Below, in pieces: positions 24,035-55,633 of a stretch of 57,278 nucleotides of DNA; position 1 is the first letter of the stretch; each line of letters begins with the position of its first letter. The stretch spans positions 1 to 57,278 of the forward strand of contig NZ_WTVQ01000029.1 of the NCBI RefSeq assembly GCF_012910955.1, read 5' to 3'. Below the pieces are notes generated by a model. That model had not been told where the DNA came from. It did not search any database and saw only the letters and a list, made by a program, of their open reading frames with translations. A program made the translations under genes and the position numbers. Source of the stretch: Aromatoleum diolicum (lineage in GTDB: Bacteria; Pseudomonadota; Gammaproteobacteria; Burkholderiales; Rhodocyclaceae).

Positions 24035-24221
24035 CCGCCAGACGGGCGTCCAAGCCAAGCAGGGCCTCCCGACAGGATGTTCAACCGAAATCCGCACCTT
24101 GCCCCGACGAGACGAGATACGCGGCTCGGTGCATGCGCTAGTATGACAATTCGTGGCAGCGCGTATCTCCGGTCTCGCCATTGATTGAATCTATCCGTGT
24201 GAAACGGTGGAGGGACGTTTC

Positions 24222-25436
24222 GTGACACACCGAAAGCGCATCCTGTTCATCGCCGAGGCCGTTACACTCGCCCACGTCGCACGTCCTTATGCACTGGCCC
24301 GCGGCCTCGACGCGGCTGACTGGGAAATCGTCTTCGCCTGCGCGGACACCTATCTGGCGCTCTTCCCGGACTGGCCGTGGCAGCGGGTAGACCTCCAGTC
24401 AATCGCCCCGCAGGTGTTCATGCGGCGGCTGGCCCAGGGCCATCGCCTTTACCCGCGGGAAACACTCGAGCAATATGCCCGCGAGGATTTACGTCTTATC
24501 GACACACTGCGTCCGGACGTGATTGTCGGCGACTTTCGGCTCTCCCTGTCGGCAACGGCCCGTGCGGCTAGAGTGCCCTACGTCGCTCTGACCAACGCGT
24601 ACTGGAGCCCATATGCAACGAGGCGCCGCATTCCGGTACCAAGCCTGCCAATGACGCGGGCACTCGGCGTACCCCTCGCCTCGGCACTTTTCACCCTTTC
24701 TCGCCCTCTCGCCTTCGCCTGGCACACGCTGCCGCTCAATAGTCTGCGCCGCGAGTACGGCCAACCATCGCTCGGATTCGATTTACGTCGCGCATATACC
24801 GATGCGGACATCACTCTGTACGCCGATATACCGCAACTTGTACCCACCAGCGGACTGCCCGCGCACCATCGCTACATTGGGCCGGTCGAGTGGTCGCCAC
24901 CGATCCCGATGCCGGAACTTCCGCGGCAACAAACTGCGGATAAGCCTTTCGTCTATGTAACGATGGGCAGTTCGGGATCAGCCACGCTCCTGCCGACAAT
25001 TCTCAGTGCGCTATCGGGACTGGACTGCCAGATCGCCGTCGCTACAGGCGGCATTCGCATCCACGACGCCCCCGCCAATGCGATTGTGGCCGACTATCTT
25101 CCAGGCGATCGCATGGCCGATTGCGCGCGCCTCGTCATCTGCAATGGCGGCAGTCCAACCAGTCATCAAGCGCTCGCGCGCGGAGTACCGGTACTCGGAA
25201 TTCCTTCCAACCTCGATCAGCACCTGAACATGGAGTACGTAACGGCCTACGGCGCCGGCCTTTCGCTGCGCCCCGAGAGTGCCACGGTGCAGCGCTTGCA
25301 AGAAGCAATACGCACCCTGCTGCACGCCCCCGAATATCGGCGCCGAGCCGGCGATCTGGCCAACATCATGCGGGAGCAGAACCCGGCCGGAGCACTGGCC
25401 GGCACCATCACCGAAATCCTGGAGCTGCACTCATGA
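24222..25436 (+). CDS. GT1-type glycosyltransferase
   Basis: The 404-aa protein resembles UDP-glycosyltransferases of the MGT/GtfB type: an N-terminal acceptor domain starting KRILFIAEAVTLAHVARPYALAR and a C-terminal donor domain with VYVTMGSSGSATLLPTILSAL and the nucleotide-sugar motif ICNGGSPTSHQALARGVPVLGIPSNLDQHLNM. The start is the GTG at 24222, with GGAGG 8 bases upstream; a GTG at 24207 would be inside that ribosome site. Its stop overlaps the acyltransferase start (ATGA), so the two probably modify one product, perhaps a glycolipid. The acceptor is unknown. Confidence 0.83.
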   Translation: MTHRKRILFIAEAVTLAHVARPYALARGLDAADWEIVFACADTYLALFPDWPWQRVDLQSIAPQVFMRRLAQGHRLYPRETLEQYAREDLRLIDTLRPDVIVGDFRLSLSATARAARVPYVALTNAYWSPYATRRRIPVPSLPMTRALGVPLASALFTLSRPLAFAWHTLPLNSLRREYGQPSLGFDLRRAYTDADITLYADIPQLVPTSGLPAHHRYIGPVEWSPPIPMPELPRQQTADKPFVYVTMGSSGSATLLPTILSALSGLDCQIAVATGGIRIHDAPANAIVADYLPGDRMADCARLVICNGGSPTSHQALARGVPVLGIPSNLDQHLNMEYVTAYGAGLSLRPESATVQRLQEAIRTLLHAPEYRRRAGDLANIMREQNPAGALAGTITEILELHS

Positions 25437-26128
25437 GAAAAATATCGCCGGGTCAGATCGCAACTTTCATCACGATCCTCGCCATCGTCCTGATGCTCGC
25501 GGCGGGCACCGCGTGGGGAACGCTTGGAGCACTACCGCTAGGGGACTTCCGCGGCATCGCAATCGTGGCCGCAGCCGCGATCCTGGTGATCGTCTATGGC
25601 ATCGCTGCGTACAGATTGTTCCTGTGGCTGCAGCCCCTGCCCGAAGGGGAAATTCCACACAACTCGCGCGCCGAATTCATCTACCACGTATATCTGCTGT
25701 TCTTTCTCGTGCTTTTCTACCCCCTCATGCGCAGCGGCGCCGTCCCGGTTCCGATCCTTCGCCTGATCTACCTGGCACTTGGCGCACGCCTGGGTGAAAA
25801 CACGTACAGCTCCGGAATCATCCTGGATCCGATTTTCGTCGAGATCGGCAGCAACAGCATTGTTGGCCAGTTCGCCCTGCTCGTTCCCCACGTGATCGAG
25901 GGCGAGAAACTTGCACATTATCCAATCCGGATTGGCAATAATGTGACCATCGGCGCGCACTCGTGCGTGCTGTCCGGAGTCACTATCGGCGACGGCGCAA
26001 TCGTCGCGACCGGCGCCGTTGTCTCCAAGGGCACGCGGATCGCGCCCGGAGAGGTTTGGGGTGGCGTGCCGGCGCGGCGCCTTCAACCCCAGAGTCAGCG
26101 CGACAGCAGCACGGCGGCAAACAGCTGA
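25433..26128 (+). CDS. Membrane-anchored hexapeptide-repeat acyltransferase
   Basis: The 231-aa protein has hydrophobic segments at about 6-30, 40-65 and 84-115, then a left-handed beta-helix of hexapeptide repeats (residues about 120-215; VEIGSNSIVGQFALLV, IRIGNNVTIGAHSCVLSGVTIGDGAIVATGAVV) ending in the usual VWGGVPARRL. Such enzymes transfer acetyl or other acyl groups from CoA to sugars. The membrane part suggests a lipid-linked acceptor. It is translationally coupled to the upstream glycosyltransferase. Confidence 0.83.
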   Translation: MRKISPGQIATFITILAIVLMLAAGTAWGTLGALPLGDFRGIAIVAAAAILVIVYGIAAYRLFLWLQPLPEGEIPHNSRAEFIYHVYLLFFLVLFYPLMRSGAVPVPILRLIYLALGARLGENTYSSGIILDPIFVEIGSNSIVGQFALLVPHVIEGEKLAHYPIRIGNNVTIGAHSCVLSGVTIGDGAIVATGAVVSKGTRIAPGEVWGGVPARRLQPQSQRDSSTAANS

Positions 26129-27426: not shown

Positions 27427-27628
27427 GCTAAGGCTCCTCAAACAGTTATTCAGGTGCGCTGGTTGCGGGGACGGTCTGTCCGGCAACTCGAAGGGTACTC
27501 CGATGCATGACAACGGCGCAAACGGTATCGCGAGCTTGCCTCGGGCAACGCAAGGGGAAGCGTAGCCACGGGCAAAGCCGCCGTTCCCAGTTCGCGCGAT
27601 ACCGCTGAGGGAAGTGCAGCCAGGCAAA

Positions 27629-27659
27629 AAAAAAAGGGGCAACAAGTTGCCCCTTTTTT
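27629..27659. terminator. Strong bidirectional terminator
   Basis: A run of A residues, GGGGCAAC, a two-base AA loop, GTTGCCCC and a run of T residues make a perfect stem with A/T tracts on both sides. It closes the transcript of the two secreted-protein genes (minus strand) and isolates the sulfotransferase gene. Confidence 0.92.
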
Positions 27660-27677: not shown

Positions 27678-29213
27678 TCACTTAATCGGCGGATGGAGTT
27701 GAATATTGCCGCCGTCGATGAATCCACCTACCGAATAGATAACGGGACTCGCCGGATCGCTGGTCGCGTGGATTTCGATCGTATACACGTCCGCGCAGTT
27801 CGTGCAAATCTGAGCCGCCGTCGCATCGGTAGTGGGATCGCCAACAAGCGCGCCGATTTGATGGATGGTTTCACAAATCGGGTTGGAGACCTGTTTTCCA
27901 CCGGCGCCGGGTTCGCCAAGATCCTCGAAGTGGACTCTCACGAAGTGCAATGTGCCACCCTTGCCAGGAACCACCAACGGATCGTTCTTCAGCGGTCCGC
28001 TCTGCACGTTCTTGAACGCCCCGATACCCGTGAAATCAAGTTGCTTGAACGGGGCGGGCCGTGCCGGCTGACAGTTCACCGGGTCGACGCACGTGACGGT
28101 CACTACCTTCGTTTCCGCCGGCGCGCTCGCCGTACCCAGGTGCAAGACGAAGTCTCCCTGTGGTCCCTTCTGCTGATGGTGAGTCCATTCGCCAAACGGT
28201 TGCGGCTGGGAGGCCGTTGGTGCGCCAATCTGTCCGCCGAACGTATAACGATTGCCGCCGGTGGATATGGCGGTAGCGAGCTTGGCGAGCGTGATTTCGC
28301 CCTTCCCGTCAACGCCGCCGCCGGTCATGCGGCAACCTTCCTCAGTCACCTCGATGGCGGAAAACTCCGAATTGGCATCGGCCTTCAGCACCAGGTCGAG
28401 CGGCAGCACCACATAAGGTGTCTTTCCGATCGGATCACCATCAGGCACCGATGCGTCGAATGTGCCGATGAGCGTAATCAGGGTGTCGAAAGTGGTGTTG
28501 GAAAGACTTACGCCCGCGCCGGCCGGATCCGCCTCAATGTATTGCGTGTTGTAGCTGTCGACCGTGTTCCGGATCAGATTGTTGCCTCCGACCCCCTGCT
28601 GAAACAATCCTGAAACGCCCACCAGGGTGCCCTCCAGGAAAGCAATACCATCGATGAAATTGTTGTTTACAGGTCCCGGAGGGTTGGAATCCGTGTTGCC
28701 GACGTTCGAATCTGGCGTGTCGTCAAAATAGAATTTGTAGCTGCCGGTCAAAGTCGTGAACTGAATGATTCCCGGCGCAATCAGCGTAGCCGACTCCTCA
28801 CCGGAAAAGGCGGCTGTAACTTCAAAACACCCGCTACCCGCATCACAGGTTGCCCCATTCTTCGAAAGAGTATTAGGCGAAATATTACCGCCGTCCGGGG
28901 CCAGCATGGCGTTCAATCGGGCATGGCCATGGACGTTGACGATTACCGTGTTGCCAATGGATGCCAGGCCAACCCATTGGGCAAACGTCGTGACGGTATT
29001 TCCAGAAGCAATTGCTGGCACCGGCAAGGCATTGACGACCACCAGATCGCCGGACGACTGCCAGTCGAACTCATTGATGCCCGTCACATTGTATACGCCA
29101 TTTCCCGCAGTACTGAACTGAACGTCAGTGGGAAATTCCGCGTGTGTAGACGGCGAAATGGCGCAGAGCATGAAGCCCAGCGCCGCCGTAATTGCCTTGA
29201 TCGGCGTGTTCAT
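27678..29213 (-). CDS. Secreted protein, PEP-CTERM paralogue lacking the anchor, with a novel C-terminal domain
   Basis: The 511-aa protein has a signal peptide (about residues 1-25, ending STHA) and then about 260 residues clearly paralogous to the next gene's product: TGINEFDWQSSGDL, ARLNAML, ESATLIAPGIIQF, TTFDTL and KADANSEFSA are shared almost identically. At the point where the paralogue changes to its PEP-CTERM anchor, this protein continues with about 225 residues of another domain (MTGGGVDGKG, RYTFGGQIGAPTA, FGEWTHHQQKGPQGDF, HFVRVHFEDLG) containing seven cysteines after residue 290. No PEP-CTERM motif is present. The start ATG at 29213 has GGGGGAGG upstream. It is 77 bases behind the paralogue, probably in one transcript. 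Likely exported and soluble. Confidence 0.8.
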   Translation of the reverse strand: MNTPIKAITAALGFMLCAISPSTHAEFPTDVQFSTAGNGVYNVTGINEFDWQSSGDLVVVNALPVPAIASGNTVTTFAQWVGLASIGNTVIVNVHGHARLNAMLAPDGGNISPNTLSKNGATCDAGSGCFEVTAAFSGEESATLIAPGIIQFTTLTGSYKFYFDDTPDSNVGNTDSNPPGPVNNNFIDGIAFLEGTLVGVSGLFQQGVGGNNLIRNTVDSYNTQYIEADPAGAGVSLSNTTFDTLITLIGTFDASVPDGDPIGKTPYVVLPLDLVLKADANSEFSAIEVTEEGCRMTGGGVDGKGEITLAKLATAISTGGNRYTFGGQIGAPTASQPQPFGEWTHHQQKGPQGDFVLHLGTASAPAETKVVTVTCVDPVNCQPARPAPFKQLDFTGIGAFKNVQSGPLKNDPLVVPGKGGTLHFVRVHFEDLGEPGAGGKQVSNPICETIHQIGALVGDPTTDATAAQICTNCADVYTIEIHATSDPASPVIYSVGGFIDGGNIQLHPPIK

Positions 29214-29249
29214 TTGAGACCTCCCCCAAAAGACGCAACACACTCACAA

Positions 29250-29290: not shown

Positions 29291-30235
29291 TCAAGCTACG
29301 CGCGCGGTTGCGCGGCGACGGAGTCCCGCGAGGCCCAGCAGGCCGCTACCCAGCAGAATCAGCGTGCCCGGTTCAGGAACCGGTGTAGCTGAAAACTCCG
29401 AATTGGCGTCGGCTTTACGGACCAGGTCACCCGCCACAACCACTCGTCCGGCGACCGTATCCCCGAGATCGTCGGCCGAAGCTTCGTTCAGGGAGACCAA
29501 GGACACCAGGGTATCGAAAGTTGTGCCGGACAGCGGTTGCAGGGACTGCGGATCGGACTGGATAAAGCTGGACAAATAGGCGTCGACGCTGTTGACCAGA
29601 TTATTGTTTCCGCCCGCGCCAAACTGGAAGGTTCCGTTTACCGACAGGAGACTGCCGGAAAGGAAATCTGTTCCGTCGGTAAATCCGGCACCGGTTTCCA
29701 CCACGGAGTCTGGCGATTCATCATAGAAGAACGAATACGTACCAGAAATGGTGTTGAACTGGAGAATTCCCGGCGCGATCAGCGTCGCCGATTCGGTGCC
29801 CGTCAGGGTCGCGGTGATCTCGAAGCCTGCGTCCCCGTCTACCGTGCCGTTGGTGTCCAGGGTGGCAGGTGCGACGCTGTTGCCCAAGGCGTCGAGCATG
29901 TCATTCAGTCTGGCCTGGGCCGCGATGTCGAAGGTCACCGTGTCGCCGACAACAGCGGTGGCCGCCCAAATGGCGAGCGAGTCGACAAGGACGCCATCCG
30001 CAAAGGAGCCAGTTCCGCTCAAGTTGTCCGAAATAAGCAAATCGCCCGACGACTGCCAATCGAACTCGTTGATTCCCGTGATGTCGTAATTACCTAGCGC
30101 GCCGTCATCAACACCTGTCCCGGTTCCCGTGGTGGAGAACTGGACCAGGGTATCCACGGCCTGAGCCTGCGGCGAAAGGGACAGCGCCGCCAGGAGTGCG
30201 CCAACCGCCGAAGCTGTCTTGAGTTTGGTTTTCAT
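29291..30235 (-). CDS. PEP-CTERM sorting-domain secreted protein
   Basis: The 314-aa protein has a signal peptide with cleavage near AQA (residues 24-26), a Thr/Ser/Asn/Asp-rich low-charge body, and a C-terminal PEP-CTERM module: VPEPG at residues 286-290, hydrophobic helix TLILLGSGLLGLAGL and the basic end RRRATARVA. Such tails are recognised by exosortase (XrtA/EpsH), which removes the anchor before release to the cell surface or exopolysaccharide matrix. ATG is preceded by a GGAGG site. A sigma-54 type promoter lies 75 bases upstream, matching control by the PrsK/PrsR system encoded in this window. Confidence 0.92.
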   Translation of the reverse strand: MKTKLKTASAVGALLAALSLSPQAQAVDTLVQFSTTGTGTGVDDGALGNYDITGINEFDWQSSGDLLISDNLSGTGSFADGVLVDSLAIWAATAVVGDTVTFDIAAQARLNDMLDALGNSVAPATLDTNGTVDGDAGFEITATLTGTESATLIAPGILQFNTISGTYSFFYDESPDSVVETGAGFTDGTDFLSGSLLSVNGTFQFGAGGNNNLVNSVDAYLSSFIQSDPQSLQPLSGTTFDTLVSLVSLNEASADDLGDTVAGRVVVAGDLVRKADANSEFSATPVPEPGTLILLGSGLLGLAGLRRRATARVA

Positions 30236-30573: not shown

Positions 30574-31644
30574 CTAGACGAGCAAGTCGCCCAGATCCTT
30601 GCGAAGCGATCGCGACGCGGGTGCTGCGGAGCGCCCCACCCGGCAGAAGAATACGAAGGGACTGCCCGCGTTTGCGCCCACCAGAGATTCGAAATCGCCA
30701 GCAAGCACGAGAGCTTGGCGACCGATTTCGGGCAAGGCCGAGAACGTCCTGCCGCAGCGGGCGTACCATCGAAAAATAACGGGCGTCATCTGCGGCTGCA
30801 AATGCAGACCGACGGCGCTCGCGGACAGCCAGAGACGCTGCATGGCGACGCCCGCGCGAACGTAGTCGGCGAGCCCGACGGGAGCCTCACGCGGGCGCAG
30901 CAGGACATGCGCGGCACAGCCCAGCGCCGGGAGGAAATCCAGCTGGATGCGGGGAGGAATCGTGCCCAACAGGTACCGGTTGAAAAATGCCACGCGCTCC
31001 CAACGCTGCATCACCCACTTCATCAGGCGGGCGGTAAGCGGATCGACCCCCACCGCCCCCTCCGGAATCCGGTCCTTGCTGTAACGCGCACCCCACTCGA
31101 TGATCTCCCGATGGACCGCATAGGCCTCCGGGCACGTCAGGCGGATATGCGCGTTGTCCCATAACAACCGCGCGACCTTGAGTCGATCGCGCGATGACTC
31201 CAGGAACTGCACGTCGTAGGCGGGCCCGGGCGCGGCCGCCAGCGCACTTCTTTGCACGGCCGTAAGCGGCTTGATCGACATCGGACGGCGTTGCACAACG
31301 CGCTGTTCGACAAAGCTCAAAAGCGGATCGACGGACACGCCAGACGACTCGCGAAGTAGCACATCGTAGATCGGGCAGCTGTCCTCCGCGGCGTTTCGCA
31401 CGCTCCAGCTGGCATCCAGCCCGAAGCCGGTCGCAGCAAGCCTCAGCGTTTCCAGCAACGCTCCGTGAGCCATGTGACTGGCATGGCCATCGAAATCGTA
31501 CAGACACCAGTCACGCGTGTCATAACCATGAATCGCGATGTGATCCGGCGCGACGATCTCGAACCGCCAAGGCTGTGTGTTGTCGCCGCTTGGCGCCCAA
31601 CGCGCGAGATCAAGAATGCGTAGCAGGGTTTCGCGCTCAGCCAT
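30574..31644 (-). CDS. Nitroreductase-fold protein paired with ThiF-like enzyme
   Basis: The 356-aa protein begins with a nitroreductase-type FMN-binding signature, LARWAPSGDNTQPWRFEI (residues 13-30), and has a second conserved block near 270-300 (ADYVRAGVAMQRLWLSASAVGLHLQPQM). It is longer than simple FMN nitroreductases (about 200-220 aa) and lacks a signal peptide. The start ATG at 31644 overlaps the end of the ThiF-like gene by 8 bases and has GGAGCG upstream; an ATG 15 bases earlier is possible. The same two domains occur fused in one polypeptide in the mycobacterial Rv1355c family, which suggests a joint reaction. Substrate unknown. Confidence 0.75.
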   Translation of the reverse strand: MAERETLLRILDLARWAPSGDNTQPWRFEIVAPDHIAIHGYDTRDWCLYDFDGHASHMAHGALLETLRLAATGFGLDASWSVRNAAEDSCPIYDVLLRESSGVSVDPLLSFVEQRVVQRRPMSIKPLTAVQRSALAAAPGPAYDVQFLESSRDRLKVARLLWDNAHIRLTCPEAYAVHREIIEWGARYSKDRIPEGAVGVDPLTARLMKWVMQRWERVAFFNRYLLGTIPPRIQLDFLPALGCAAHVLLRPREAPVGLADYVRAGVAMQRLWLSASAVGLHLQPQMTPVIFRWYARCGRTFSALPEIGRQALVLAGDFESLVGANAGSPFVFFCRVGRSAAPASRSLRKDLGDLLV

Positions 31645-32557
31645 GCTTCGCTCCGGCATTTTTCATTCGCCGTAACTGCTGACGCGCGATCCACAAGCCG
31701 AGGACCTGAAGCGGATTGCGATTTCCCCCAGGGCGCCATGTTCGGACAAGACGGTTTGTGTACGCGTCGAACTGGTAAGCCCGCGGCGCGGCGAACACCT
31801 TGCCGCGCCCGAGAAGGATCTTGAGCCCTTCAGCAGCCGTAACGCCGGCGCACAGCTGACATGCAACTATAGTGGATGGACCACGCCGTTCAGCAAGGTT
31901 TACGTACGAGGGATCGGCAAGATATCCGCGCTGCAGCATCGCCGGCGACAAGCCCAGGAGAAATCGTATCGCCATTTCCTCCTCGTCGCAGCCGTCGAGA
32001 CAGAAGTACTCTTCGAAACTCATCCCTCCGGGGAGAAATGCCAGCATCGCCGCCCCCATCCCGAGCGGTGCGGCCGTGACAGCCGGTATCCCCAGACGGT
32101 GGCAGGCCGCGAACGTTGCGCGGCGGGCTGCGAACGAGAAAAAATCGAGACCATCGACGTAAAGATCGACCCCTTCAAGGAACGCGTCAAGATTCTCGTC
32201 TGCCACACCCTGAGGGAAACGGCGGACCTCCAGCTCGGGATTGATATCGAGCGCCATCTCCGCCAGCACGTCAACTTTCGGACGCCCGAGCGTCGACATC
32301 ATTGCCCCGGCCTGCCGATTGAAATTCACGACGTCAAAACTATCGAAGTCGGAAATATTGAATGCGCCGATGCCGAGCCGCGCGAGCGTTACCAGATGTA
32401 CGCCACCGACCCCCCCCATGCCGGCAATCGCGACGCGCTTGCGCCGCAGAAGCCCTTGCTCCGCCTGGGTCACCCAACCGAGGTTCCGGACGAACGCGGT
32501 ATCGTAGTCGAACGTACTCACCACTCTTCCCCTTTGTTGGAGTGCCGCCTGAGTCAT
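31637..32557 (-). CDS. ThiF/MoeB/E1-like adenylyltransferase
   Basis: The 306-aa protein has the E1-like nucleotide fold: glycine loop IAGMGGVGGVHL (about 44-55), acidic SDFDSFDVVNFNRQ (69-82) with the conserved Asn-Arg-Gln, and a later ADP-contact region YVDGLD (133-138). Four cysteines are arranged as CLDGC (186/190) and CQLC (233/236), close to the zinc site of MoeB/ThiF but with one altered spacing. Such proteins adenylate the C-terminal carboxylate of a small carrier protein or another acid. No ubiquitin-like carrier gene (ThiS/MoaD) is nearby. The ATG at 32557 is chosen over 32746 because the extension shows no coding character. Confidence 0.82.
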   Translation of the reverse strand: MTQAALQQRGRVVSTFDYDTAFVRNLGWVTQAEQGLLRRKRVAIAGMGGVGGVHLVTLARLGIGAFNISDFDSFDVVNFNRQAGAMMSTLGRPKVDVLAEMALDINPELEVRRFPQGVADENLDAFLEGVDLYVDGLDFFSFAARRATFAACHRLGIPAVTAAPLGMGAAMLAFLPGGMSFEEYFCLDGCDEEEMAIRFLLGLSPAMLQRGYLADPSYVNLAERRGPSTIVACQLCAGVTAAEGLKILLGRGKVFAAPRAYQFDAYTNRLVRTWRPGGNRNPLQVLGLWIARQQLRRMKNAGAKHG

Positions 32558-32722
32558 GATAGAGAATTCATTCCATGAGAGAAACGTACGTCCACCGATA
32601 TTTGCGGCCCCGTTCGCGGAATCTGACACATACCCGCCGATACCAAGATGGACTATGATTACCCGGCAGGAGTCGCGGCGGGAGGATCTTGCAGGCCGGG
32701 ATCGGGACCTCCATTGGAGACC

Positions 32723-32738
32723 TGGCACCCTGGATTCA
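32723..32738 (+). promoter_or_regulatory. Weak sigma-54-like element upstream of the acyltransferase
   Basis: TGGCACCCTGGATTCA has a perfect TGGCAC -24 box but TTC where TGC is expected at -12. It lies 37 bases upstream of the acyltransferase start. The mismatch at an invariant position makes it uncertain. Confidence 0.25.
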
Positions 32739-32775
32739 ATAAGCATACCGGTAACAGAGCCAAAGGAGACTGCCG

Positions 32776-33570
32776 TTGCTTCTGTTCGACCGATTCAATC
32801 TCGGCCATGGATTCAGAAAATACTTCGAAATCCATCCAGCGACGACTGATTCGCTGCGCGATGACGTCTATCGTGTTCGGCATGAGGTGTATTGCGAAGA
32901 ACTCCGCTTCGAACCGGTTCGACCTGACCGGCGGGAAACCGACGAGTACGATTCGCATAGCCTTCACTGCCTGTTGAGCACAAGCACGGAACCGAGGAAA
33001 CCAGTCGGGTGTACCCGCGTCGTCCTGGCCAAGGCCAACGAACCGGATTACCTGCTGCCGTTCGAGCGCACGTGCGCGGCGACGCTGGACCGTTCGATCG
33101 TAGATCCGGCACGACTTCCCCGAGAGCAGATCGCCGAGGTTTCGCGGCTCGCGGTGCGCTCCGCCTACCGCCGCCGACGCGGCGAAACGGTGGCTGACGC
33201 GCCGATCCATGACGAAGACTTTGGTTCAACAATACAGCCGCGCTTCCCGTACATTCCGATCGGGCTGTATCTGGGTGCCATTGCCCTCGCTGCGCGGAGC
33301 GGAATCGAAACCCTTTTCGTACTGACCGAACCACGCCTTGCCTCGCATTTCGCCAAACTGGGGGTCGATGTGCGCCAGATCGGCGGGGCCGTCGAACACC
33401 GGGGGACACGCATTCCATCGATGATGGATGTGCAGGGCATTATCAAGGGCATGCGGTTCCTGCTGAAGCCGATGTGGCGGACCATTCAGGAAGAAATCGA
33501 GATGGCGTATGAGCAGTCCGCCGGCTCGGATCCAAAGGACAAACGAGCGCCTGATGACCCTCGCAAATAA
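32776..33570 (+). CDS. PEP-CTERM/exosortase-system-associated acyltransferase (LuxI-like)
   Basis: The 264-aa protein belongs to the GNAT/autoinducer-synthase-like family found with exosortase systems. Conserved points resemble AHL synthases: VYRVRHEVYCEELRFEP (about 31-47), DEYDSHSLH (57-64), GCTRVVLA (78-85) and EVSRLAV (121-127, the E-x-x-R pair). It starts at TTG 32776, with AAAGGAG 8 bases upstream. The C-terminal 20 residues are charged and probably disordered. It diverges from the ThiF/nitroreductase pair across 218 bases. Its product is not known. Confidence 0.83.
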   Translation: MLLFDRFNLGHGFRKYFEIHPATTDSLRDDVYRVRHEVYCEELRFEPVRPDRRETDEYDSHSLHCLLSTSTEPRKPVGCTRVVLAKANEPDYLLPFERTCAATLDRSIVDPARLPREQIAEVSRLAVRSAYRRRRGETVADAPIHDEDFGSTIQPRFPYIPIGLYLGAIALAARSGIETLFVLTEPRLASHFAKLGVDVRQIGGAVEHRGTRIPSMMDVQGIIKGMRFLLKPMWRTIQEEIEMAYEQSAGSDPKDKRAPDDPRK

Positions 33571-47897: not shown

Positions 47898-50693
47898 TCA
47901 GAGCTTGTCCTTCAGCGCGCCCAACTCCGTGCGATGGGGACTGTCTGCCGGCAATTTTTCCAACAGCGTGGTAACTTCCTGGCGCGCTTCATCCTTGCGA
48001 CCAAGCCTTACGTACGTCTTGGCCAGATTGACCCGCATTGCCCAGCCGGTCGGAGCCAGCGATACCGCTCGACGCAGGTTCTCCACGCCTTTCTCGGCCT
48101 GCCCAAACTCCACCTGCAGCATCCCCAGCGTGTCCAGCACGGCTGGATTGTCCGGCGAAAGGCGCAATGCCCGTTCCGCCAGCGCAAGCGCTTGCGGATC
48201 CTTTCGCTGGCCGGCGATCCACGCGAGATTGTTGATGACCAGCGGAGCATCGGGCTTGATTTCATTCATCTTGCGGTAGAGCTTTTCAGCATCATCCAGA
48301 CGACGTTCAGTAAGCGCCCGGTCCGCGAGAAAAGCTCGCATTTTGATGTCATTAGGGTTTGCGCGGAGCCAGTCGCTCACTGTCTTCACCGCATCGGCGC
48401 TCTTACCGCTGTGCATCTGCGTCGCATACAGCTTGATCGCAACTTCCGACGTTTTTTCAAGGTCGAGCGCCTTGCGAAAAGCCGGCAATGCCAGCGCCCA
48501 GTTTTTCGTAAGAATATGGATATCACCTTCCAGCGCCCAACCGGTGGACATTTTCGGACGTTGCTTCTGAACCGTACGAGCGATTTCGAGCGCGTCGTTG
48601 GTCCGTTTGTCTTCGAGGTACAGCAATACCAATCTCCGCTGCGCGTCGACGAAATCAGGCTTGAGACTCAGTGCGCGCTTCAGGGATTGTTCCGCTCCCA
48701 CACGATCCTTTGTCAGACGCTGTGCGTCAGCCAGCTCGATCAGGGGTGACACGGCCTGAGGAAGCAAACCCACCTGCTTGCTGAACGCCGCGATTGCCTG
48801 CTGCTGATCACCCGCAGCAAACTGCGAACGTCCAAGCATGCGGAGCACCCTGGGATCATTGGGGTGTGCTGCGGCCACCTCCTGCACCATTGCCAGTGCC
48901 TTCTTCGTATCACGCTGCTCCAAGTCATGGTGCACAAGTGCCAGCTTGGGCGCGACGGCGGCCGGATCCGAACGGGTCGCACGCTCAAGCACCTCACGGA
49001 CCGCTTCGGGCTTGGCCCCGGTGCTTACAAGCAGATCTGCCAGGAGCAAGTAAGCTTGAATCCTTTTCGGATTCGCCGCGATGATTGCCTCGAAACGTTT
49101 TACCGCATCCTGCGGACGCTTCTCCATCAGATCCATCCGCGAGAGACTGAGGGCAGCAGGCAGATGATCGGCCTTCAGCGCGAGCGCCTTCTCCAGCGCC
49201 GCACGCGCACCGGTCAAATCCTTTTTCGCTGCAAGGATCCCGCCCTTGAGCGTATACGTCTGCGGACTATCCGGCTGTTTACTCTCGAGCCTACGCTGTG
49301 CGGCAAGTGCCTTGTCCAGCTCCCCACGTCGCAAATGCACCAGAATAAGGGCTACATCGGCCTCCCCGACACTTGTCGAAAATTGTGACGCCGCCTCAAG
49401 GTCGCTCATTGCGTCGACAGAATCGCCTGCGAACAACCGCGAAATGCCGAGTTGCATCCGCGCTACCGCGTCATCCGGCCTTGCTGCCGCGACTCTTGAA
49501 AAATTTTCTGATGCCTTTTCGATATCGCCGTTTGCGGCGTAGATCTGCCCAGCGAGTTTCAGCGTTTCCACGTCGGGCGCGTCGGCCTCGAGCAGGGGAT
49601 CCAATGTCTCCAACGCCGACAACGGCTCTCCTGAAGCCAGTTGCGATTGCGCCAGGGCCCGGCGTGCTACCGTCTGGCCCGGTGCCCGCCCAACGACCGC
49701 GGCCAAATGCTCCTGGGCAAGTACATGCTCATTGAGACGCGCATGGATCATTCCAGCCAGCACGCGGCCAGGCAGGAAGTCCGGTGTCAACCGGACAGTC
49801 TCAGAAATGTGCTCACGCGCCACCGACAATTTCCCATCGCGGAATTCGACCATGGCCTGCAGATACCGCGTAAGCGGATGAGCGGGGGCCACTTTCCGCA
49901 TCGCCTCGAGGCGCGGGCCCACCGCCTCGAAGTCCCCCTTCTGAAGCAACAACGAAATCAGCACGAAGTGATAATTGATCGCGCTGGGGCGAGCTTTCAC
50001 CGCAGCCCCTAATGCATCGATGGCCTCGCCGACCTGCTTGCGGGCCAACAGCACGTCCGCACGCAAGACATGTGCTTCGGCCTCATCACGCCCCCCCGGA
50101 CGCGCTGCCAACACCGCATCAGCCGCCGCCATTGCCCCATCGAGGTCAGCAGCAATGAGTTGTGTCCGTCCCAAGCCGATTTTGGACGAAGCATCCATCG
50201 GATTTGCGCTCAGCGCCGCTTCGAAGGCAGCTTTGGCGTTTGCGGTATTTTTCCGCCCCAGATGGGCATCCCCTACCGCCCCCAACACCAGCGCCTGGGC
50301 AGTCGGATCCTCAAGGCTCGTACCTTCGAACTCCTTCAGAACCTGATCGAACTCCCCTAGCTGCACCATTGCACGAGCCAGCGGCGGACTGACCTGAGCC
50401 GCAGGAAAACCCAACTCCCCCGCGCGGCGCAACTCCTTGACTGCGCCGGTCAGATTCCCCTGTTGCAAGTTAACCGTGCCCAGCAGAAAACGCGCCTCGG
50501 CCAGTTTGCCGTTTTCCTGTAACGCGTTCTTCAGCTGAATGCTTGCTGCGTTCAGATCATTTTTCGCCAGGTATTGCCGAGCCGATTCGACCATCGCTTC
50601 AGGACTGTCGCCGCACCCCGCCAGCAGCGCAACACACAGCGCCCCCAGCACGAGTCGTCGACCAGATGCAGGAAAAACCATCGCACGAGACAC
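47898..50693 (-). CDS. prsT: PEP-CTERM system TPR-repeat lipoprotein
   Basis: The 931-aa lipoprotein has a signal with lipobox LLAGC and is built almost wholly of tetratricopeptide-like repeats (for example AKNDLNAASIQLKNAL, RPDDAVARMQLGISRL, NPKRIQAYLLLADLL, SPDNPAVLDTLGML). It belongs to the large TPR proteins coded beside prsK/prsR in PEP-CTERM/exosortase organisms. I start at GTG 50693 because AAGGAG lies 8 bases upstream; a TTG at 50699 overlaps the prsR stop (TTGA), and an ATG at 50681 lies too far from the ribosome site. It is probably a scaffold for export of polysaccharide or PEP-CTERM proteins; the function is not proven. Confidence 0.9.
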   Translation of the reverse strand: MSRAMVFPASGRRLVLGALCVALLAGCGDSPEAMVESARQYLAKNDLNAASIQLKNALQENGKLAEARFLLGTVNLQQGNLTGAVKELRRAGELGFPAAQVSPPLARAMVQLGEFDQVLKEFEGTSLEDPTAQALVLGAVGDAHLGRKNTANAKAAFEAALSANPMDASSKIGLGRTQLIAADLDGAMAAADAVLAARPGGRDEAEAHVLRADVLLARKQVGEAIDALGAAVKARPSAINYHFVLISLLLQKGDFEAVGPRLEAMRKVAPAHPLTRYLQAMVEFRDGKLSVAREHISETVRLTPDFLPGRVLAGMIHARLNEHVLAQEHLAAVVGRAPGQTVARRALAQSQLASGEPLSALETLDPLLEADAPDVETLKLAGQIYAANGDIEKASENFSRVAAARPDDAVARMQLGISRLFAGDSVDAMSDLEAASQFSTSVGEADVALILVHLRRGELDKALAAQRRLESKQPDSPQTYTLKGGILAAKKDLTGARAALEKALALKADHLPAALSLSRMDLMEKRPQDAVKRFEAIIAANPKRIQAYLLLADLLVSTGAKPEAVREVLERATRSDPAAVAPKLALVHHDLEQRDTKKALAMVQEVAAAHPNDPRVLRMLGRSQFAAGDQQQAIAAFSKQVGLLPQAVSPLIELADAQRLTKDRVGAEQSLKRALSLKPDFVDAQRRLVLLYLEDKRTNDALEIARTVQKQRPKMSTGWALEGDIHILTKNWALALPAFRKALDLEKTSEVAIKLYATQMHSGKSADAVKTVSDWLRANPNDIKMRAFLADRALTERRLDDAEKLYRKMNEIKPDAPLVINNLAWIAGQRKDPQALALAERALRLSPDNPAVLDTLGMLQVEFGQAEKGVENLRRAVSLAPTGWAMRVNLAKTYVRLGRKDEARQEVTTLLEKLPADSPHRTELGALKDKL

Positions 50694-50695
50694 GG

Positions 50696-52054
50696 TCAAT
50701 TCTCCTTCTTCAAACCAAAGCGATTCATCAGGTCGTACAGTGATGGCCTGCTGATACCAAGAATATCGGCTGCCCGCGCGATGTTTCCGTTCGTGCGAGC
50801 AAGCACACGTACCACCGCGCGACGCTCCGCCTCGTCACGCACATGACGCAGATTAAGGTGCTCAAGGTCCGCCTCCACGGGGTCGAGTCCAAGATCCTCC
50901 GCGGTGATACGCGTTGAATCGGCCATGATGACTGCACGCTTGAGACAGTTTTCCAGTTCGCGGACATTACCTGGCCATCGGTGCGATTCGATGGCCGCCA
51001 ACGCATCATCGCCCAAATGCATGCCGCCTCTTCCGCTTTCCTTGGCAAAGCGCTGGATGAAGGCATGCGCGAGGAGGGTCGCATCCCCTTCCCGGTCACG
51101 TAACGGCGGGATGTCAATCACGATCTCGGCGAGCCGGTAATAGAGATCTTCGCGAAACAGGCCGGCACTGATCTGCGCCTTGAGATCGCGATGGGTTGCG
51201 CAGACCACACGCACGTCCACGGGAATTTCGGTGCGCCCGCCAATACGCTCAATTACCCGCTCCTGCAGAAAGCGCAACAGCTTCGCCTGAAGCGCCATTG
51301 GCAGATCGCCGATTTCATCGAGAAAGAACGTACCCTTATGCGCTGCTTCGATTTTCCCCAAGGTCTGTTTGGCCGCCCCGGTAAAAGCGCCTTTTTCGTA
51401 GCCGAAAAGTTCGCTTTCCAGAAGATTCTCTGGAATGGCGGCGCAATTGATCGCCATGAACCGTTCGCGCACACGAGGCGACAGCGCATGCAGACCACGT
51501 GCCAGTATCTCCTTGCCAGTGCCACTCTCACCCAATAACGCTACAGTCACATTAGCCGAAGCAAGTTTTTCAACCGTACGGCATATCTTTAGCATTGACG
51601 GGTCTCGGGTCAGGATGCCCGAGAGCGCGCTCCCCTGCTGCGCTTTAAGGCGCATGTTTTCCGCCTGAAGATCGTGCAACCGAAAGGCGCGATCGATCGT
51701 CAGCGCCAACAATTCAGGCTCAAAGGGTTTGCCGAAAAAATCGTATGCCCCCATCGCCACCGCCTTTACTGCATTCTCGCGGTCATGCTGGCCAGTCAAC
51801 ACAATCACCTTGGTATCCGGCGCCAACGCCAGCATCTCGCCTAACAACCGAAAGCCCTCAACCACATCATCCGGTGTCGGTGGCAGCCCCAGGTCCATCG
51901 TCACCACTGCGGGTTCGTGCCGCCGCAACTGGGCGATGGCACTCTCCCTGTCGTCGGCAACGATCGTCTCGAACGCATCGAACGCCCAACGCATCTGCTT
52001 CTGCAGTGCGGGATCGTCCTCGACTATCAGGAGAGTTCGTCGCTTGTCGTTCAT
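50696..52054 (-). CDS. prsR: PEP-CTERM sigma-54 response regulator
   Basis: The 452-aa NtrC-type activator has a receiver domain (EDD 12-14, phosphoacceptor D54, K109), an AAA+ domain with Walker A GESGTGKE (175-182), the sigma-54 contact loop GAFTGA (222-227), FFLDEIGD Walker B, and a Fis-type helix-turn-helix at the C terminus (NGNIARAADILGISRPSLYDLMNRFG). It should activate -24/-12 promoters such as the one at 30310-30325. It is encoded between prsK (30 bases apart) and prsT. Confidence 0.95.
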   Translation of the reverse strand: MNDKRRTLLIVEDDPALQKQMRWAFDAFETIVADDRESAIAQLRRHEPAVVTMDLGLPPTPDDVVEGFRLLGEMLALAPDTKVIVLTGQHDRENAVKAVAMGAYDFFGKPFEPELLALTIDRAFRLHDLQAENMRLKAQQGSALSGILTRDPSMLKICRTVEKLASANVTVALLGESGTGKEILARGLHALSPRVRERFMAINCAAIPENLLESELFGYEKGAFTGAAKQTLGKIEAAHKGTFFLDEIGDLPMALQAKLLRFLQERVIERIGGRTEIPVDVRVVCATHRDLKAQISAGLFREDLYYRLAEIVIDIPPLRDREGDATLLAHAFIQRFAKESGRGGMHLGDDALAAIESHRWPGNVRELENCLKRAVIMADSTRITAEDLGLDPVEADLEHLNLRHVRDEAERRAVVRVLARTNGNIARAADILGISRPSLYDLMNRFGLKKEN

Positions 52055-52084
52055 GATCCCTTCGTCATCATCGCAAGATTGCGA

Positions 52085-54151
52085 TCAACTGCCGCCCCCG
52101 CGAACCGCCGCCGGAAGCGTGACAGTTACCCGTGTTCCCCGCCCAGGTTCACTATCAAACAAGAGGCGACCACCGAGTTCGTGAATATACTGCTGGGCCT
52201 CAAATACGCCGAGCCCCATGCCACCCGCCTTGCTTGTCTGAAATGGCTTGGAAAGACGTTCACGGATAAACTCCTTTGTCATTCCGCAACCATTGTCCTC
52301 GACCAGAACACGAACTGCATCACCGTCAACCCGGGCCACCCGCGTCACTACACTACCATCCTCCGGCGTCGCGTCGAGCGCATTCTGCACGAGATGCCCA
52401 ATCACTCGCTCCAACCGTTCAGGATGCGCCAAAACCTCGATTGGCAATTCATCCGAGATATCCACTTCAACTTGCGGGCGGTGATGACGCTTGGCCACCT
52501 GCACACGCCCGATCAACGCACCCACCTCCACCCGCCGCGGAGGATCAATGGAACGCTTCTCCTGCAACTGGGCCATCAACGCGCGCATACGTGACTCCAC
52601 ATGAGCGACCGTTGCGAGCATATCCTCCTGAAACTCCGGGTTATGCTTGTGTCGCTCGGCATTTTTCAGCATCAGCGATAGCTGCGCGACAAGATTCTTC
52701 AGATCATGCACCACAAACGCAGACATGCGATTGAAGGAGTCGAACTTCCGCGATTCGAGCAAGGCCTCAGCAGCCTGCATCCGCGCGAGATAACTCGCCG
52801 CCTGCCGTTGTGCCGTCTTGAGTAGATCCAGCACCTCCCAGTTAACCTCGAAAGGCGTTCGTGGTGCATTCAGCACTGCGAAGCCAACCAGAGCGCCCGC
52901 TGACTTAAGTGGCAACACCAGCCAGGCGTCCGGCATCGACGACAGCCACTCGGGCAGCGTCAGACCCTCGTAGAGCCCGGGACGAGCACGAAACTCCTCA
53001 AGGTTGATGATCCACTCGCGTTCGTCAAGAAATCGACAGAACGCGCTGCCTTCATCCTCGATTGCATCCGATGCGATCTGGTTGAGACGCGCGTGTATGG
53101 AATAGCGCCCACCCGAGTCCCTCAACCAGAGCGCGCCGCCAGAACTTTCGACAAGGTCGGATAATGCCTTGATGACCGACTGACCGAGGTCCATTGTTCC
53201 ACCGGCAGCCGACATAGCCTGGGTAAAGCGCAACCACTCATTACGGTAATCGTAGCGATATGGAAACAGATGCTTGTTGAGGAACACACGCAGACGGGCC
53301 CGCTGAGCCCCCGAGAATAAAAAAACCCCGAGCAACAGCAGACCGGCGAACAACAACGCAAGCTGGAGCGCGCGCCCCCAGTCACCACCGACGTAGCGAA
53401 CGTAATAGCCGGCCCCGGCAATCACAAGCAGGTAAAGACCCGACAATGCCAAGGCCGTCGAGTGGAAAACCATCTCCCGTGATACCGTGATATGCAGTGT
53501 CCAGGCAGGGTTTCGGCCTGCCGACAACGCAATCAGCGGAATCGTCAGCGCATGCGCCACCCCTCGCACGCCCCAGACGTCGGCGTCCAGCCGGCCGAAC
53601 AGAAAACCATCCGCAAATAGATACAACTCAAAAATATACCCGGCTGATAGAGCCAGGCACAGTGGCTTCAAGCCCCACCGTGACTCACCCGGCATTCCGC
53701 GAAACAGCTGCTCGACCAACACCAGCCCCAGCACGGCCCCGCCAAGAAAACTTCCCAGCAGCAGTTTGGTCGCGACCTCCCCGAGCGCAAAGTCGAAGCC
53801 GGCATTAACGACCGCCAGGAGTTCCGCGAGAAGCACCCCGGTCGTCACCAGCACCGGCCAGCGCCGGCGTGCCGCCCCAAGCGGCTGTAGCAGAATGAGG
53901 AGAAACCCGAGCCAGCAGACCTGGCGCAGGATATCGAGCACCCAGCCCAACAGGCTGATCCAGGCAGCCGGATTCGCAACGACAAATGTGCTCGCGAGCG
54001 CCCACAAGGCGCTGCTCGCGACCGCCACTAGCAAGACCCCGCCGGCTACCCCGCCCCGCCACCCGTGCAAAAGGTAAACACCAAACAACACATAGGCACC
54101 GGAAGCAACGCCATAACCCAACCCCGCTGCGTTTGACAACTCAGCCCCCAT
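52085..54151 (-). CDS. prsK: PEP-CTERM system histidine kinase
   Basis: The 688-aa kinase has eight or more N-terminal membrane helices (about 5-285), a GAF-like domain (about 310-460), the H box MSAFVVHDLKNLVAQL with H482, N box QNALDATPEDG, G1 DNGCGM (619-624) and G2 GGMGLG (643-648). It should phosphorylate PrsR. The large membrane sensor suggests a signal in the envelope. The ATG at 54151 is followed by no in-frame alternative close by. Confidence 0.93.
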   Translation of the reverse strand: MGAELSNAAGLGYGVASGAYVLFGVYLLHGWRGGVAGGVLLVAVASSALWALASTFVVANPAAWISLLGWVLDILRQVCWLGFLLILLQPLGAARRRWPVLVTTGVLLAELLAVVNAGFDFALGEVATKLLLGSFLGGAVLGLVLVEQLFRGMPGESRWGLKPLCLALSAGYIFELYLFADGFLFGRLDADVWGVRGVAHALTIPLIALSAGRNPAWTLHITVSREMVFHSTALALSGLYLLVIAGAGYYVRYVGGDWGRALQLALLFAGLLLLGVFLFSGAQRARLRVFLNKHLFPYRYDYRNEWLRFTQAMSAAGGTMDLGQSVIKALSDLVESSGGALWLRDSGGRYSIHARLNQIASDAIEDEGSAFCRFLDEREWIINLEEFRARPGLYEGLTLPEWLSSMPDAWLVLPLKSAGALVGFAVLNAPRTPFEVNWEVLDLLKTAQRQAASYLARMQAAEALLESRKFDSFNRMSAFVVHDLKNLVAQLSLMLKNAERHKHNPEFQEDMLATVAHVESRMRALMAQLQEKRSIDPPRRVEVGALIGRVQVAKRHHRPQVEVDISDELPIEVLAHPERLERVIGHLVQNALDATPEDGSVVTRVARVDGDAVRVLVEDNGCGMTKEFIRERLSKPFQTSKAGGMGLGVFEAQQYIHELGGRLLFDSEPGRGTRVTVTLPAAVRGGGS

Positions 54152-54244
54152 TCACCCTCCACGGCAAGCCTTCGTCTGCGGCCGGCACGTTGGAATTCGG
54201 CGGCGCGGCACGCTGCACCCGGTCATACGTCACGGGAGATCTGC

Positions 54245-55633
54245 TCAGTGTGCCCCTTCTCCGGTCAGAACAACACGGACGGTCTCGAAAAGTACAAGCG
54301 TGTCGAGTACCAGATTGTGATTCTTCACGTAATAAAGGTCGTACTGGAGTTTCTGGATTGCGTCATCCACCGAAGCCCCGTACTGGTAACGGACCTGTGC
54401 CCAGCCGGTCACTCCCGGTTTCACACTATGGCGAACCGCATAAAAGGGTATCTCACGCTCAAGCTGGTCAACAAAATAAGGCCGTTCCGGCCGCGGACCA
54501 ACAAGGCTCATCTCACCGGACAGTACATTGAACAGCTGTGGCAACTCATCAATGCGCAATCTGCGGATCACCCGCCCCACACGCGTCACCCGATCATCGC
54601 CGGATGATGCCCAACGCGGCTTGCCATCCTTCTCGGCATCCCGCCGCATGCTTCGGAATTTGATTACGCGAAATACTCGACCCCGCTGGCCAACCCGTTC
54701 CTGCCGATAAAACACTGGCGCGCCATCCTCAAGCACGATCAGTACTGCGGTCAGAAGCATAGCCGGCAAGGCTACGACCAACAGCGTACCGGATGCGATC
54801 AGGTCAAAACACCGCTTTACGGCACTGCGTGCCAGCCCCTGCCGGAACCCGTCACCATAGATCAGCCAACTCGCCTTCAGTGAGTCGATCCGCACCTGCC
54901 CCTTCGCGCGCTCAAAAAACGACGACAAGTCCATCACGCAAACGCCGCGGAGTTTGCAGTCAAGCAATTCGCGAATTGGAAGGACCCCTCCGCGCCGCTC
55001 CTTTACAGCCACGATCACGTCATGGACGCGCCGCTGCCTGACAGCCTCGAGGAGCCCGTGATCGCCGGACACAATCTGAGCGGGATCGACATCAATCGAA
55101 TCCTCGTTTCCAGAGGGATAGAACCCGACAATCTCCATACCGCCCTGCGCCGGGCTACCGAGCGATCTCGCCACCGCCGCAGCCTCAGGCCCGGTACCGA
55201 TAATCAAGACGCGTGGAGCAAACGCCGACGTCGCCCGATGCCGATTCACCACTCCCCGCATCAGGAGTACAAGGCCAAGCAACAGCACAACGGATATCTG
55301 CATCGCCTCCGATGCAAAGTAATTCCATGGCAACACCGAAAACACGCCGAAAGCCAAGGGGATGCTGACCAAAATCGAGACCAGCACACGTGCCGTGGTG
55401 CTACGCACCGAGCCATCGCTCGACGTTGACCGGTACAAACCCAACGCACTATTGAGTACGATCATCACAGCAGCAAACAACAAAGCGGACGGAACGATGA
55501 CGCGCCAATCCACCGTTGTGCCGTGCACTTGAAAGGCAACCGCCAACAGGACTGCGACAAAGAGCACCGACGCATCGAAAACGATCTGCTGCAACGTATG
55601 CGATGGGAAATACTGGCTGAACACCCGTAGCAT
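54245..55633 (-). CDS. XrtA/PEP-CTERM-associated polyprenyl-phosphate sugar transferase
   Basis: The 462-aa protein resembles TIGR03013-type glycosyltransferases: four N-terminal membrane helices (about 20-130), a CoA-binding-like Rossmann segment (RVLIIGTGPEAAAVARSLG, 141-159) and a C-terminal bacterial sugar transferase domain with KRCFDLIASG, FRVIKFRSMRRDAE, RRLRIDELPQLFNVLSG and GPRPERPYF. It transfers the first sugar phosphate to undecaprenyl phosphate, starting exopolysaccharide repeat units. It is read just upstream of prsK, 93 bases apart. Confidence 0.92.
   Translation of the reverse strand: MLRVFSQYFPSHTLQQIVFDASVLFVAVLLAVAFQVHGTTVDWRVIVPSALLFAAVMIVLNSALGLYRSTSSDGSVRSTTARVLVSILVSIPLAFGVFSVLPWNYFASEAMQISVVLLLGLVLLMRGVVNRHRATSAFAPRVLIIGTGPEAAAVARSLGSPAQGGMEIVGFYPSGNEDSIDVDPAQIVSGDHGLLEAVRQRRVHDVIVAVKERRGGVLPIRELLDCKLRGVCVMDLSSFFERAKGQVRIDSLKASWLIYGDGFRQGLARSAVKRCFDLIASGTLLVVALPAMLLTAVLIVLEDGAPVFYRQERVGQRGRVFRVIKFRSMRRDAEKDGKPRWASSGDDRVTRVGRVIRRLRIDELPQLFNVLSGEMSLVGPRPERPYFVDQLEREIPFYAVRHSVKPGVTGWAQVRYQYGASVDDAIQKLQYDLYYVKNHNLVLDTLVLFETVRVVLTGEGAH

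Follow-up and report, generated by a model that had tools for sequence, protein, structure and literature searches.

A probable acyl-oxazolone biosynthesis cluster in Aromatoleum diolicum and its likely link to the exosortase system

What do an E1-like ThiF protein, a nitroreductase-fold protein and a PEP-CTERM/exosortase-associated acyltransferase make together? The question is raised by three adjoining genes of Aromatoleum diolicum in a stretch of 57,278 nucleotides of contig NZ_WTVQ01000029.1 (assembly GCF_012910955.1), which was analysed as a whole and is called the window below. A preliminary description of this DNA had proposed an undescribed system in which an acid is adenylated, reduced by a flavin enzyme and then acylated. 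From protein families, predicted folds, conserved ATP-site residues, gene linkage and linkage to exosortase genes, we conclude that the trio is very probably a cluster for the biosynthesis of an acyl-oxazolone (tyrazolone-type), of a split, divergent type. Such a system is not undescribed, as the gene set has been published as OxzAB, TyzACB and TrzAS and in clusters for N-acyl dehydrotyrosines (PMC12479983; this and the other papers are cited from passages of their texts).

The three open reading frames (ORFs), their overlap of 8 bases, the divergent acyltransferase, the length of 356 residues and the quoted motifs were all found where the preliminary description had put them (Table 1). The nitroreductase gene is read from ATG 31644; ATG 31659 would give 361 residues instead. 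The ThiF gene ends at 31637 and overlaps it over positions 31637-31644. The longest ThiF ORF starts at 32746 and encodes 369 residues, of which residue 64 corresponds to ATG 32557. The latter is the likely start, because the match to the family model NF006077/PRK08223 begins at residue 77 of the longer ORF, 13 residues after this ATG, and none falls in its first 76 residues. In the resulting 306-residue numbering, GMGGVG spans residues 46-51 and NFNRQ residues 78-82. The acyltransferase gene starts at TTG 32776, with a ribosome-binding site (AGGAG) 7 bases upstream, and its YRVRHEVY and EVSR motifs lie at residues 32-39 and 121-124. It diverges from the ThiF gene across 218 bp, in which a scan for sigma-70-like promoters gave no match. 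The arrangement of adjacent ThiF and oxidase genes with an acyltransferase gene beside them is that of oxazolone clusters, and is common in the relatives.

The ThiF protein scored 486 bits against NF006077/PRK08223 (cut-off 266) and the nitroreductase 47.6 bits against PF00881 (cut-off 23.5). The acyltransferase exceeded the cut-off of 111.95 bits of TIGR03694, the model of the PEP-CTERM/exosortase-associated acyltransferases (Table 1); we refer to it as the N-acyl amino acid synthase (NAS). A second acyltransferase-like match in the same genome (L008) was set aside as an OlsB-like ornithine acyltransferase, under the cut-offs of those models. The predicted structure of the NAS (predicted local distance difference test, pLDDT, 89.4) has the fold of FeeM and the acyl-homoserine lactone (AHL) synthases: its best Foldseek matches were the AHL synthases RpaI and BjaI (E 1e-9 to 2e-9), and it matched FeeM (2g0b) at E 5.8e-7. 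Among solved folds, 2ymv, a homologue of Acg, was closest to the predicted structure of the nitroreductase (pLDDT 95.7) at E 2.6e-14, the runner-up reaching 3.6e-5; 2ymv was also the best solved match by profile (E 5e-22), as expected of an Acg-like flavin oxidase. TyzA has been likened to the FeeM and BjaI folds (PMC10404671) and the desaturase domain of TrzS to Acg 2YMV (PMC12856293), and these same folds are among the nearest solved ones of the window's proteins.

Residues of the ATP site are conserved as well. In a profile of 7 relatives of the ThiF protein, E. coli ThiF was the best match among solved chains, and D135 aligned with the first Asp of its DCTDN motif. The ATP-binding Asp of a ThiF-like cyclase is thus present, placed by way of E. 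coli ThiF rather than TrzS Asp217. G48, G49, G51, R81, K94, D135 and D138 are identical in all 106 family rows of the tree described below, the window included.

For the survey of gene neighbourhoods, neighbours were counted within 8 kb of the ThiF gene at cut-offs that we set ourselves; many flanks end at contig ends, so the counts are lower bounds. The near-kin set comprises 81 loci, namely the window and the best 80 of at least 355 confirmed relatives in named genomes, and is biased to near kin. The sampled set comprises 25 loci, several from the same family, and represents, the window's own aside, every genome that exceeded the NF006077 cut-off in a sample of 274 from the class. As controls we used 11 loci of ThiF paralogues, a subset of those listed, from some of the same genomes as the sampled set. 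A nitroreductase gene was found near ThiF in 69 of the 81 near-kin and 16 of the 25 sampled loci, and a gene for an NAS or FeeM-type synthase in 57 and 19, respectively; neither occurred in any of the 11 paralogue loci. The linkage of this ThiF type with nitroreductase and NAS is beyond chance, which upholds the earlier proposal that the three genes belong together, most likely in the making of a small molecule. ThiF and nitroreductase are fused in a single ORF in 17/81 near-kin and 8/25 sampled loci. A quick tree was built of 117 rows (the tree set: 106 members of the ThiF family and 11 paralogues); on it, fused and split forms interchange, with at least 13 changes. As a separate observation, the FeeM-type synthase at L058:5269-6051, which stands beside ThiF and nitroreductase genes, matches residues 93-224 of the model PRK14852 (NF011425). 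Later parts of this model match ThiF and nitroreductase, and it appears to cover all three activities, those of synthase, cyclase and oxidase, within a single polypeptide.

Could the ThiF protein nonetheless be an E1 enzyme of the housekeeping or ubiquitin-like kind (for thiamine, molybdopterin or t6A), or serve a ribosomally synthesised and post-translationally modified peptide (RiPP), the other two genes being incidental? It belongs to the same superfamily, its best solved matches by profile are E. coli ThiF, TcdA and MoeB, and two YcaO proteins are encoded in the window's genome, which would suit a RiPP pathway. We consider this explanation very improbable. Models of ThiF, MoeB, MoeZ and TcdA gave the protein 55-79 bits, where their cut-offs ask for 152 to 647. 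Four proteins of the genome match ThiF above the Pfam cut-off, the window's being one; of the others, L001 passes the MoeB model NF006444, L002 passes the MoeB model PRK05690, and L003 scores best for TcdA, under the cut-off (274 vs 304). Two MoeB-like and one TcdA-like protein are thus present separately. On the tree the family forms one clade apart from the 11 paralogues (SH-aLRT 99; the program warns of long branches meeting at this split, L150-L152 and L154), and it is the family, not the paralogues, that is linked to NAS and nitroreductase. Two CxxC pairs occur in none of the 106 family rows and in 2 of the 11 paralogues, and one CxxC occurs in 90/106 (CQLC in the window); since 9 of the 11 paralogues also lack two pairs, this count speaks only against the MoeB/ThiF type. 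Both YcaO genes lie on other contigs.

A housekeeping ThiF, MoeB or TcdA was rejected because no such curated model reached its cut-off and MoeB-like and TcdA-like proteins are encoded separately in the genome. An azole-forming RiPP cluster (thiazole/oxazole-modified microcin, TOMM) was rejected because there is no YcaO cyclodehydratase beside the trio. An E1 enzyme with a ubiquitin-like carrier was rejected on the family scores and the separate ThiF proteins; no search for ubiquitin-like genes was made. The preliminary description had named two outcomes that would speak against its proposal, a housekeeping ThiF protein and co-occurrence no better than chance, and we found neither.

If the trio is an acyl-oxazolone cluster, its chemistry can be carried over from the characterised relatives. 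There, acyl-oxazolones are made by an N-acyltransferase, a ThiF-type cyclase and a flavin-dependent oxidase (FDO) of the nitroreductase superfamily; TyzACB and TrzAS have been characterised biochemically, and intact oxazolones were found (PMC10404671, PMC12856293). The acyltransferase yields an N-acyl amino acid, which the ThiF enzyme closes to a ring in an ATP-dependent step; the nitroreductase-family enzyme acts in the oxidising direction, as an O2-dependent desaturase (PMC10404671, PMC12856293). Cyclisation before desaturation is obligate in TrzS, not in TyzCB (PMC12856293). By analogy, the TIGR03694 protein would N-acylate an amino acid (probably tyrosine or phenylalanine) with a chain taken from acyl carrier protein or coenzyme A. 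The ThiF enzyme would close the ring of the N-acyl amino acid at the expense of ATP, and the Acg-type flavin enzyme would introduce an alpha,beta double bond with O2, before or after ring closure. The product would be an acyl-oxazolone, or else, if the ring is opened, an N-acyl dehydroamino acid such as those of the kyonggic/thalassotalic acid kind. It would probably act at the cell envelope, together with the exosortase/exopolysaccharide (EPS) system. We infer the amino acid, the chain length, the fate of the ring and the envelope role. Compared with the relatives (PMC10404671, PMC12856293), the sequence of adenylation, flavin reduction and acylation first proposed has both the order of steps and the redox direction reversed.

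Several points weigh against an acyl-oxazolone cluster. It is known here from genes and predicted structures, so that its reactions are assigned by analogy, and its proteins were likened to TyzB, OxzB and TrzS through descriptions and family models, not through the sequences of those enzymes. The preliminary description had pointed to the fusion of ThiF and nitroreductase in the Rv1355c family. That fusion has indeed been characterised, as TrzS (PMC12856293), but the window's proteins fall far below the cut-off of its model NF005901 (476 bits): the nitroreductase reached 107.6 bits (span 5-357, over the C-terminal half of the model) and the ThiF protein 59.2. By that model they are not TrzS orthologues; its cut-off delimits such orthologues, not the wider kind of oxazolone cluster. 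In the survey, a nitroreductase gene was missing within 8 kb in 9/25 sampled loci, and no synthase gene was seen within 8 kb in 24/81 near-kin and 6/25 sampled loci, some of them with cut flanks. Finally, no acyl-oxazolones were seen in the producers of stieleriacines, kyonggic acid and thalassotalic acid according to the passages of PMC12479983, whose authors call the role of ThiF in these N-acyl dehydrotyrosine clusters enigmatic.

These producers raise a second possibility, namely that a linear N-acyl dehydroamino acid of the kyonggic-acid type is the final product, the oxazolone being a short-lived activated intermediate that facilitates desaturation before it is hydrolysed. Linear dehydro compounds came from producers with this gene set, with no oxazolone seen (PMC12479983), a cyclic intermediate opened by hydrolysis has already been proposed for the stieleriacines (PMC7293339), and TrzS cyclises before it desaturates (PMC12856293). 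We find this quite possible, though on the doubtful side. Oxazolones are destroyed during extraction by acid, which hydrolyses them, and by methanol and other alcohols, which react with them, and the linear products may therefore be artefacts (PMC12856293). Moreover, the oxazolones obtained with TyzACB and TrzAS were intact, and such products are cited for OxzAB (PMC10404671, PMC12856293).

Whatever the fate of the ring, the putative acyl-oxazolone cluster keeps company with exosortases. These were called with PF09721 at E up to 0.001 in the same 274 genomes and found in 92 of them: in 25 of the 26 with this ThiF type, compared with 67 of the 248 others (Fisher p 2.3e-12, or 6.6e-12 minus the window's genome; the p values ignore kinship). 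The lone exception is G390 (locus L146), where ThiF of this type passes the cut-off but no exosortase was matched; its assembly is in ~560 contigs. On 7 of the 9 contigs that exceed 300 kb and carry both genes, ThiF and exosortase lie at most 50 kb apart (chance 8e-7 under random placement; the distances and the choice of the nine contigs were made by hand, and that of G535 was counted across contig ends as if circular). A PEP-CTERM-type protein is encoded within 8 kb of ThiF in 63/81 near-kin loci (window included), 15/25 sampled and 2/11 paralogue loci, and an XrtA/prs gene in 42/81, 16/25 and 0/11. The window's genome has two exosortases over the cut-off, both on other contigs, which gives the TIGR03694 protein its exosortase context. 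A link of the trio to the exosortase/EPS system, as the preliminary description had suspected, is likely.

Such a link had been considered before. That of NAS with exosortase was published by Craig 2011, as cited in PMC7293339 and PMC11072679, for the same synthase in the same context as in the window; the citing passages concern the synthase and leave ThiF and nitroreductase unmentioned. For Stieleria maiorica, a functional link of the proposed stieleriacine cluster to PEP-CTERM/EPS genes has been proposed (PMC7293339). In the passages that our literature search returned, no survey of a link between exosortase, PEP-CTERM or NAS and ThiF, nitroreductase, oxazolone, MMPL or LolA surfaced, nor, for NAS, ThiF and exosortase, any mention of Lol-like/MMPL exporters; both may exist. 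What is new here is the scale of the ThiF-exosortase survey, the idea of a link being already in print.

Exporter genes also recur near ThiF. A LolA-like protein is encoded within 8 kb in 14/25 sampled and 0/11 paralogue loci, and a set of FtsX, a LolD-like ATPase and a PF17131 LolA-like protein in 12/81 near-kin, 6/25 sampled and 0/11 paralogue loci. Two FtsX/MacB-type permease genes stand between NAS and ThiF in L016-L019 and L028, from Thauera and relatives (checked with Pfam in L017:7481-9930); the window has none there. Another 8 of the 25 sampled loci have LolA-like and MMPL genes (in L142, the one checked, with a DUF1302/SPOR-like protein between them), and in 7 of these 8 there is no nitroreductase nearby. 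MMPL genes without a neighbouring nitroreductase, in most cases along with a LolA-like gene, occur at L128, L139, L142, L143, L144, L151, L152, L078, L089 and L068; L141 has both MMPL and nitroreductase. When the nine nitroreductase-less genomes were searched in full for the enzyme, six gave no match, two gave weak matches and one gave a fragment. Over the tree set, excluding 6/106 rows close to a contig end, the nitroreductase is missing in 7/8 MMPL loci compared with 8/92 others (Fisher p 3e-6, ignoring kinship; the 900-bit line for MMPL was set after the scores had been seen, and L081 and L147, at ~300 bits, were counted as without MMPL). On the tree this association comes down to 3 independent pairs on well-supported branches, too few for significance, and may reflect kinship. 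The pattern suggests a cyclase-only subtype without desaturase, the product of which would be a saturated oxazolone or a derivative of it.

In the window itself, neither type of exporter adjoins the cluster; FtsX-type genes are present in the loci of the five rows closest to the window on the tree. A search of the window's genome for LolA-like proteins gave weak or partial matches, the best at 33.5 bits for one piece, and several pass the cut-off only when neighbouring pieces are summed. The same genome has 30 MMPL matches, 29 over the cut-off. The tyz cluster adjoins mmpL9 (PMC10404671), a possible parallel to the MMPL genes in ThiF loci.

Read together, these linkages allow a bolder idea: that the oxazolone is a reactive acyl donor which attaches the N-acyl amino acid lipid to the C-terminus of a PEP-CTERM protein, or to exopolysaccharide, at the cell surface, once a Lol-like or MMPL exporter and a LolA-like periplasmic carrier have brought it there. 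If true, this would account for cyclase and exosortase remaining together even where the desaturase is missing. The presence of exosortase in nearly all genomes with this ThiF type and its proximity on long contigs, the recurrence of PEP-CTERM, XrtA/prs, LolA-like, FtsX/LolD or MMPL genes near ThiF, and the retention of the cyclase in loci without desaturase are consistent with such a role. We nevertheless judge it very unlikely. The acceptor is guesswork, the window's cluster has no adjoining exporter, and the LolA-like matches in its genome are weak or partial. The oxazolone pathway works in Actinobacteria, in which we know of no XrtA system, and G390 has the cluster with no exosortase match. 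In favour of the idea, disruption of an exosortase-family NAS in Methylomonas LW13 weakened a polysaccharide band, which complementation restored (PMC11072679). The effect is not specific to NAS, since mutants of two unrelated genes, for an O-acetyltransferase and a hemerythrin, also lost the band and all three mutants failed to grow in the syringe (PMC11072679).

Apart from the putative acyl-oxazolone trio, the window contains several further genes, collected with the trio in Table 1. The glycosyltransferase and the hexapeptide acyltransferase might be tailoring enzymes that modify the lipid or a surface glycan. Members of their families were found near ThiF in 25/81 and 13/81 near-kin loci, respectively, and each in 1/25 sampled loci. 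The XrtA/PEP-CTERM block lies 14-22 kb beyond the NAS gene.

Table 1. Positions of the three-gene locus and of neighbouring features in the window.
Feature	Position	Strand	Length or model match
Acg-type nitroreductase-superfamily protein (FDO), predicted N-acyl amino acid/oxazolone desaturase	30574..31644	-	356 aa
ThiF-like enzyme, predicted ATP-dependent cyclase	31637..32557	-	306 aa
Intergenic region between the divergent ThiF and acyltransferase genes	32558..32775	.	218 bp
TIGR03694 acyltransferase (NAS)	32776..33570	+	TIGR03694, 255.9 bits
PEP-CTERM protein, PepA-like	29291..30235	-	NF033554, 90.7 bits (cut-off 80); PF07589
PEP-CTERM protein homologue without PEP-CTERM tail in the translation	27678..29243	-	PepA model, 27.5 bits (cut-off 80)
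Sulfotransferase, just past the PEP-CTERM pair and on its strand	26296-27645	-	PF13469
EryCIII/MGT-like glycosyltransferase	24207..25436	+	PF06722 over cut-off; TIGR01426 below cut-off
Hexapeptide acyltransferase (listed ORF; real start probably ~25433)	25121..26128	+	PF00132
XrtA/PEP-CTERM block: prsT, response regulator, prsK, EpsB_2 sugar transferase	47898..55633	-	TIGR02917, TIGR02915, TIGR02916, TIGR03013, all over cut-off
PrpE-like propionate-CoA ligase, adjoining NAS; treated as an ordinary neighbour	33618-35510		passes its own model

What does the locus tell us about acyl-oxazolones? Their physiological role has been called a major unresolved question (PMC12856293). The trio belongs to the known acyl-oxazolone gene set, and its setting among exosortase genes makes the function of oxazolones testable. 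In our survey, a large branch of the oxazolone pathway is tied to the exosortase/PEP-CTERM/EPS system as well as to lipid-exporter genes of two kinds. It thus offers concrete organisms and genes for asking whether the lipid acts at the cell surface, and a lead on the purpose of oxazolones.

Among the known systems, OxzAB of Pseudoalteromonas rubra (de Rond 2021, via citing papers), which makes tyrazolones and phenazolones, has the same N-acyltransferase, ThiF and nitroreductase activities as proposed for the window, but OxzB is a fusion of ThiF and nitroreductase, which are separate here. The tryptazolone pathway TrzAS (Rv1356c, Rv1355c and homologues; PMC12856293) involves the reaction types proposed for the window, and the Rv1355c-family model aligns with both its ThiF protein and its nitroreductase. 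It differs in that TrzS is fused and in its use of tryptophan and short acyl chains (PMC12856293). The proposed stieleriacine cluster of Stieleria maiorica contains four NAS genes, an annotated tRNA threonylcarbamoyladenosine dehydratase, an oxidoreductase and a gene for a PEP-CTERM protein, with EPS genes upstream (PMC7293339); its ThiF-family and nitroreductase-family proteins are named in PMC12479983. Unlike the window, it has a methyltransferase and several NAS genes (PMC7293339, PMC12479983). The kyonggic and thalassotalic acid clusters of Massilia and Thalassotalea share NAS, ThiF and nitroreductase with the window (PMC12479983). In these producers of N-acyl dehydrotyrosines (Massilia kyonggiensis and Thalassotalea) the three genes overlap or lie <10 bp apart (PMC12479983), and the products of Massilia, Thalassotalea and Stieleria are linear N-acyl (dehydro)tyrosines (PMC12479983, PMC7293339). 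The Massilia loci in our own survey (L063, L080 and L088) have the same ThiF family as the window. TyzACB of Mycobacterium tuberculosis (Rv2336, Rv2337c, Rv2338c; PMC10404671) is clustered by mmpL9 and not by prs/PEP-CTERM genes, and the word "exosortase" never occurs in PMC10404671; nor do the passages of that paper place TyzA in TIGR03694, the family of the window's acyltransferase. Like the window, however, it consists of three separate proteins of the same kinds, and its tyzC and tyzB genes, predicted to form an operon, adjoin an oppositely oriented tyzA, which is the divergent layout of the window (PMC10404671).

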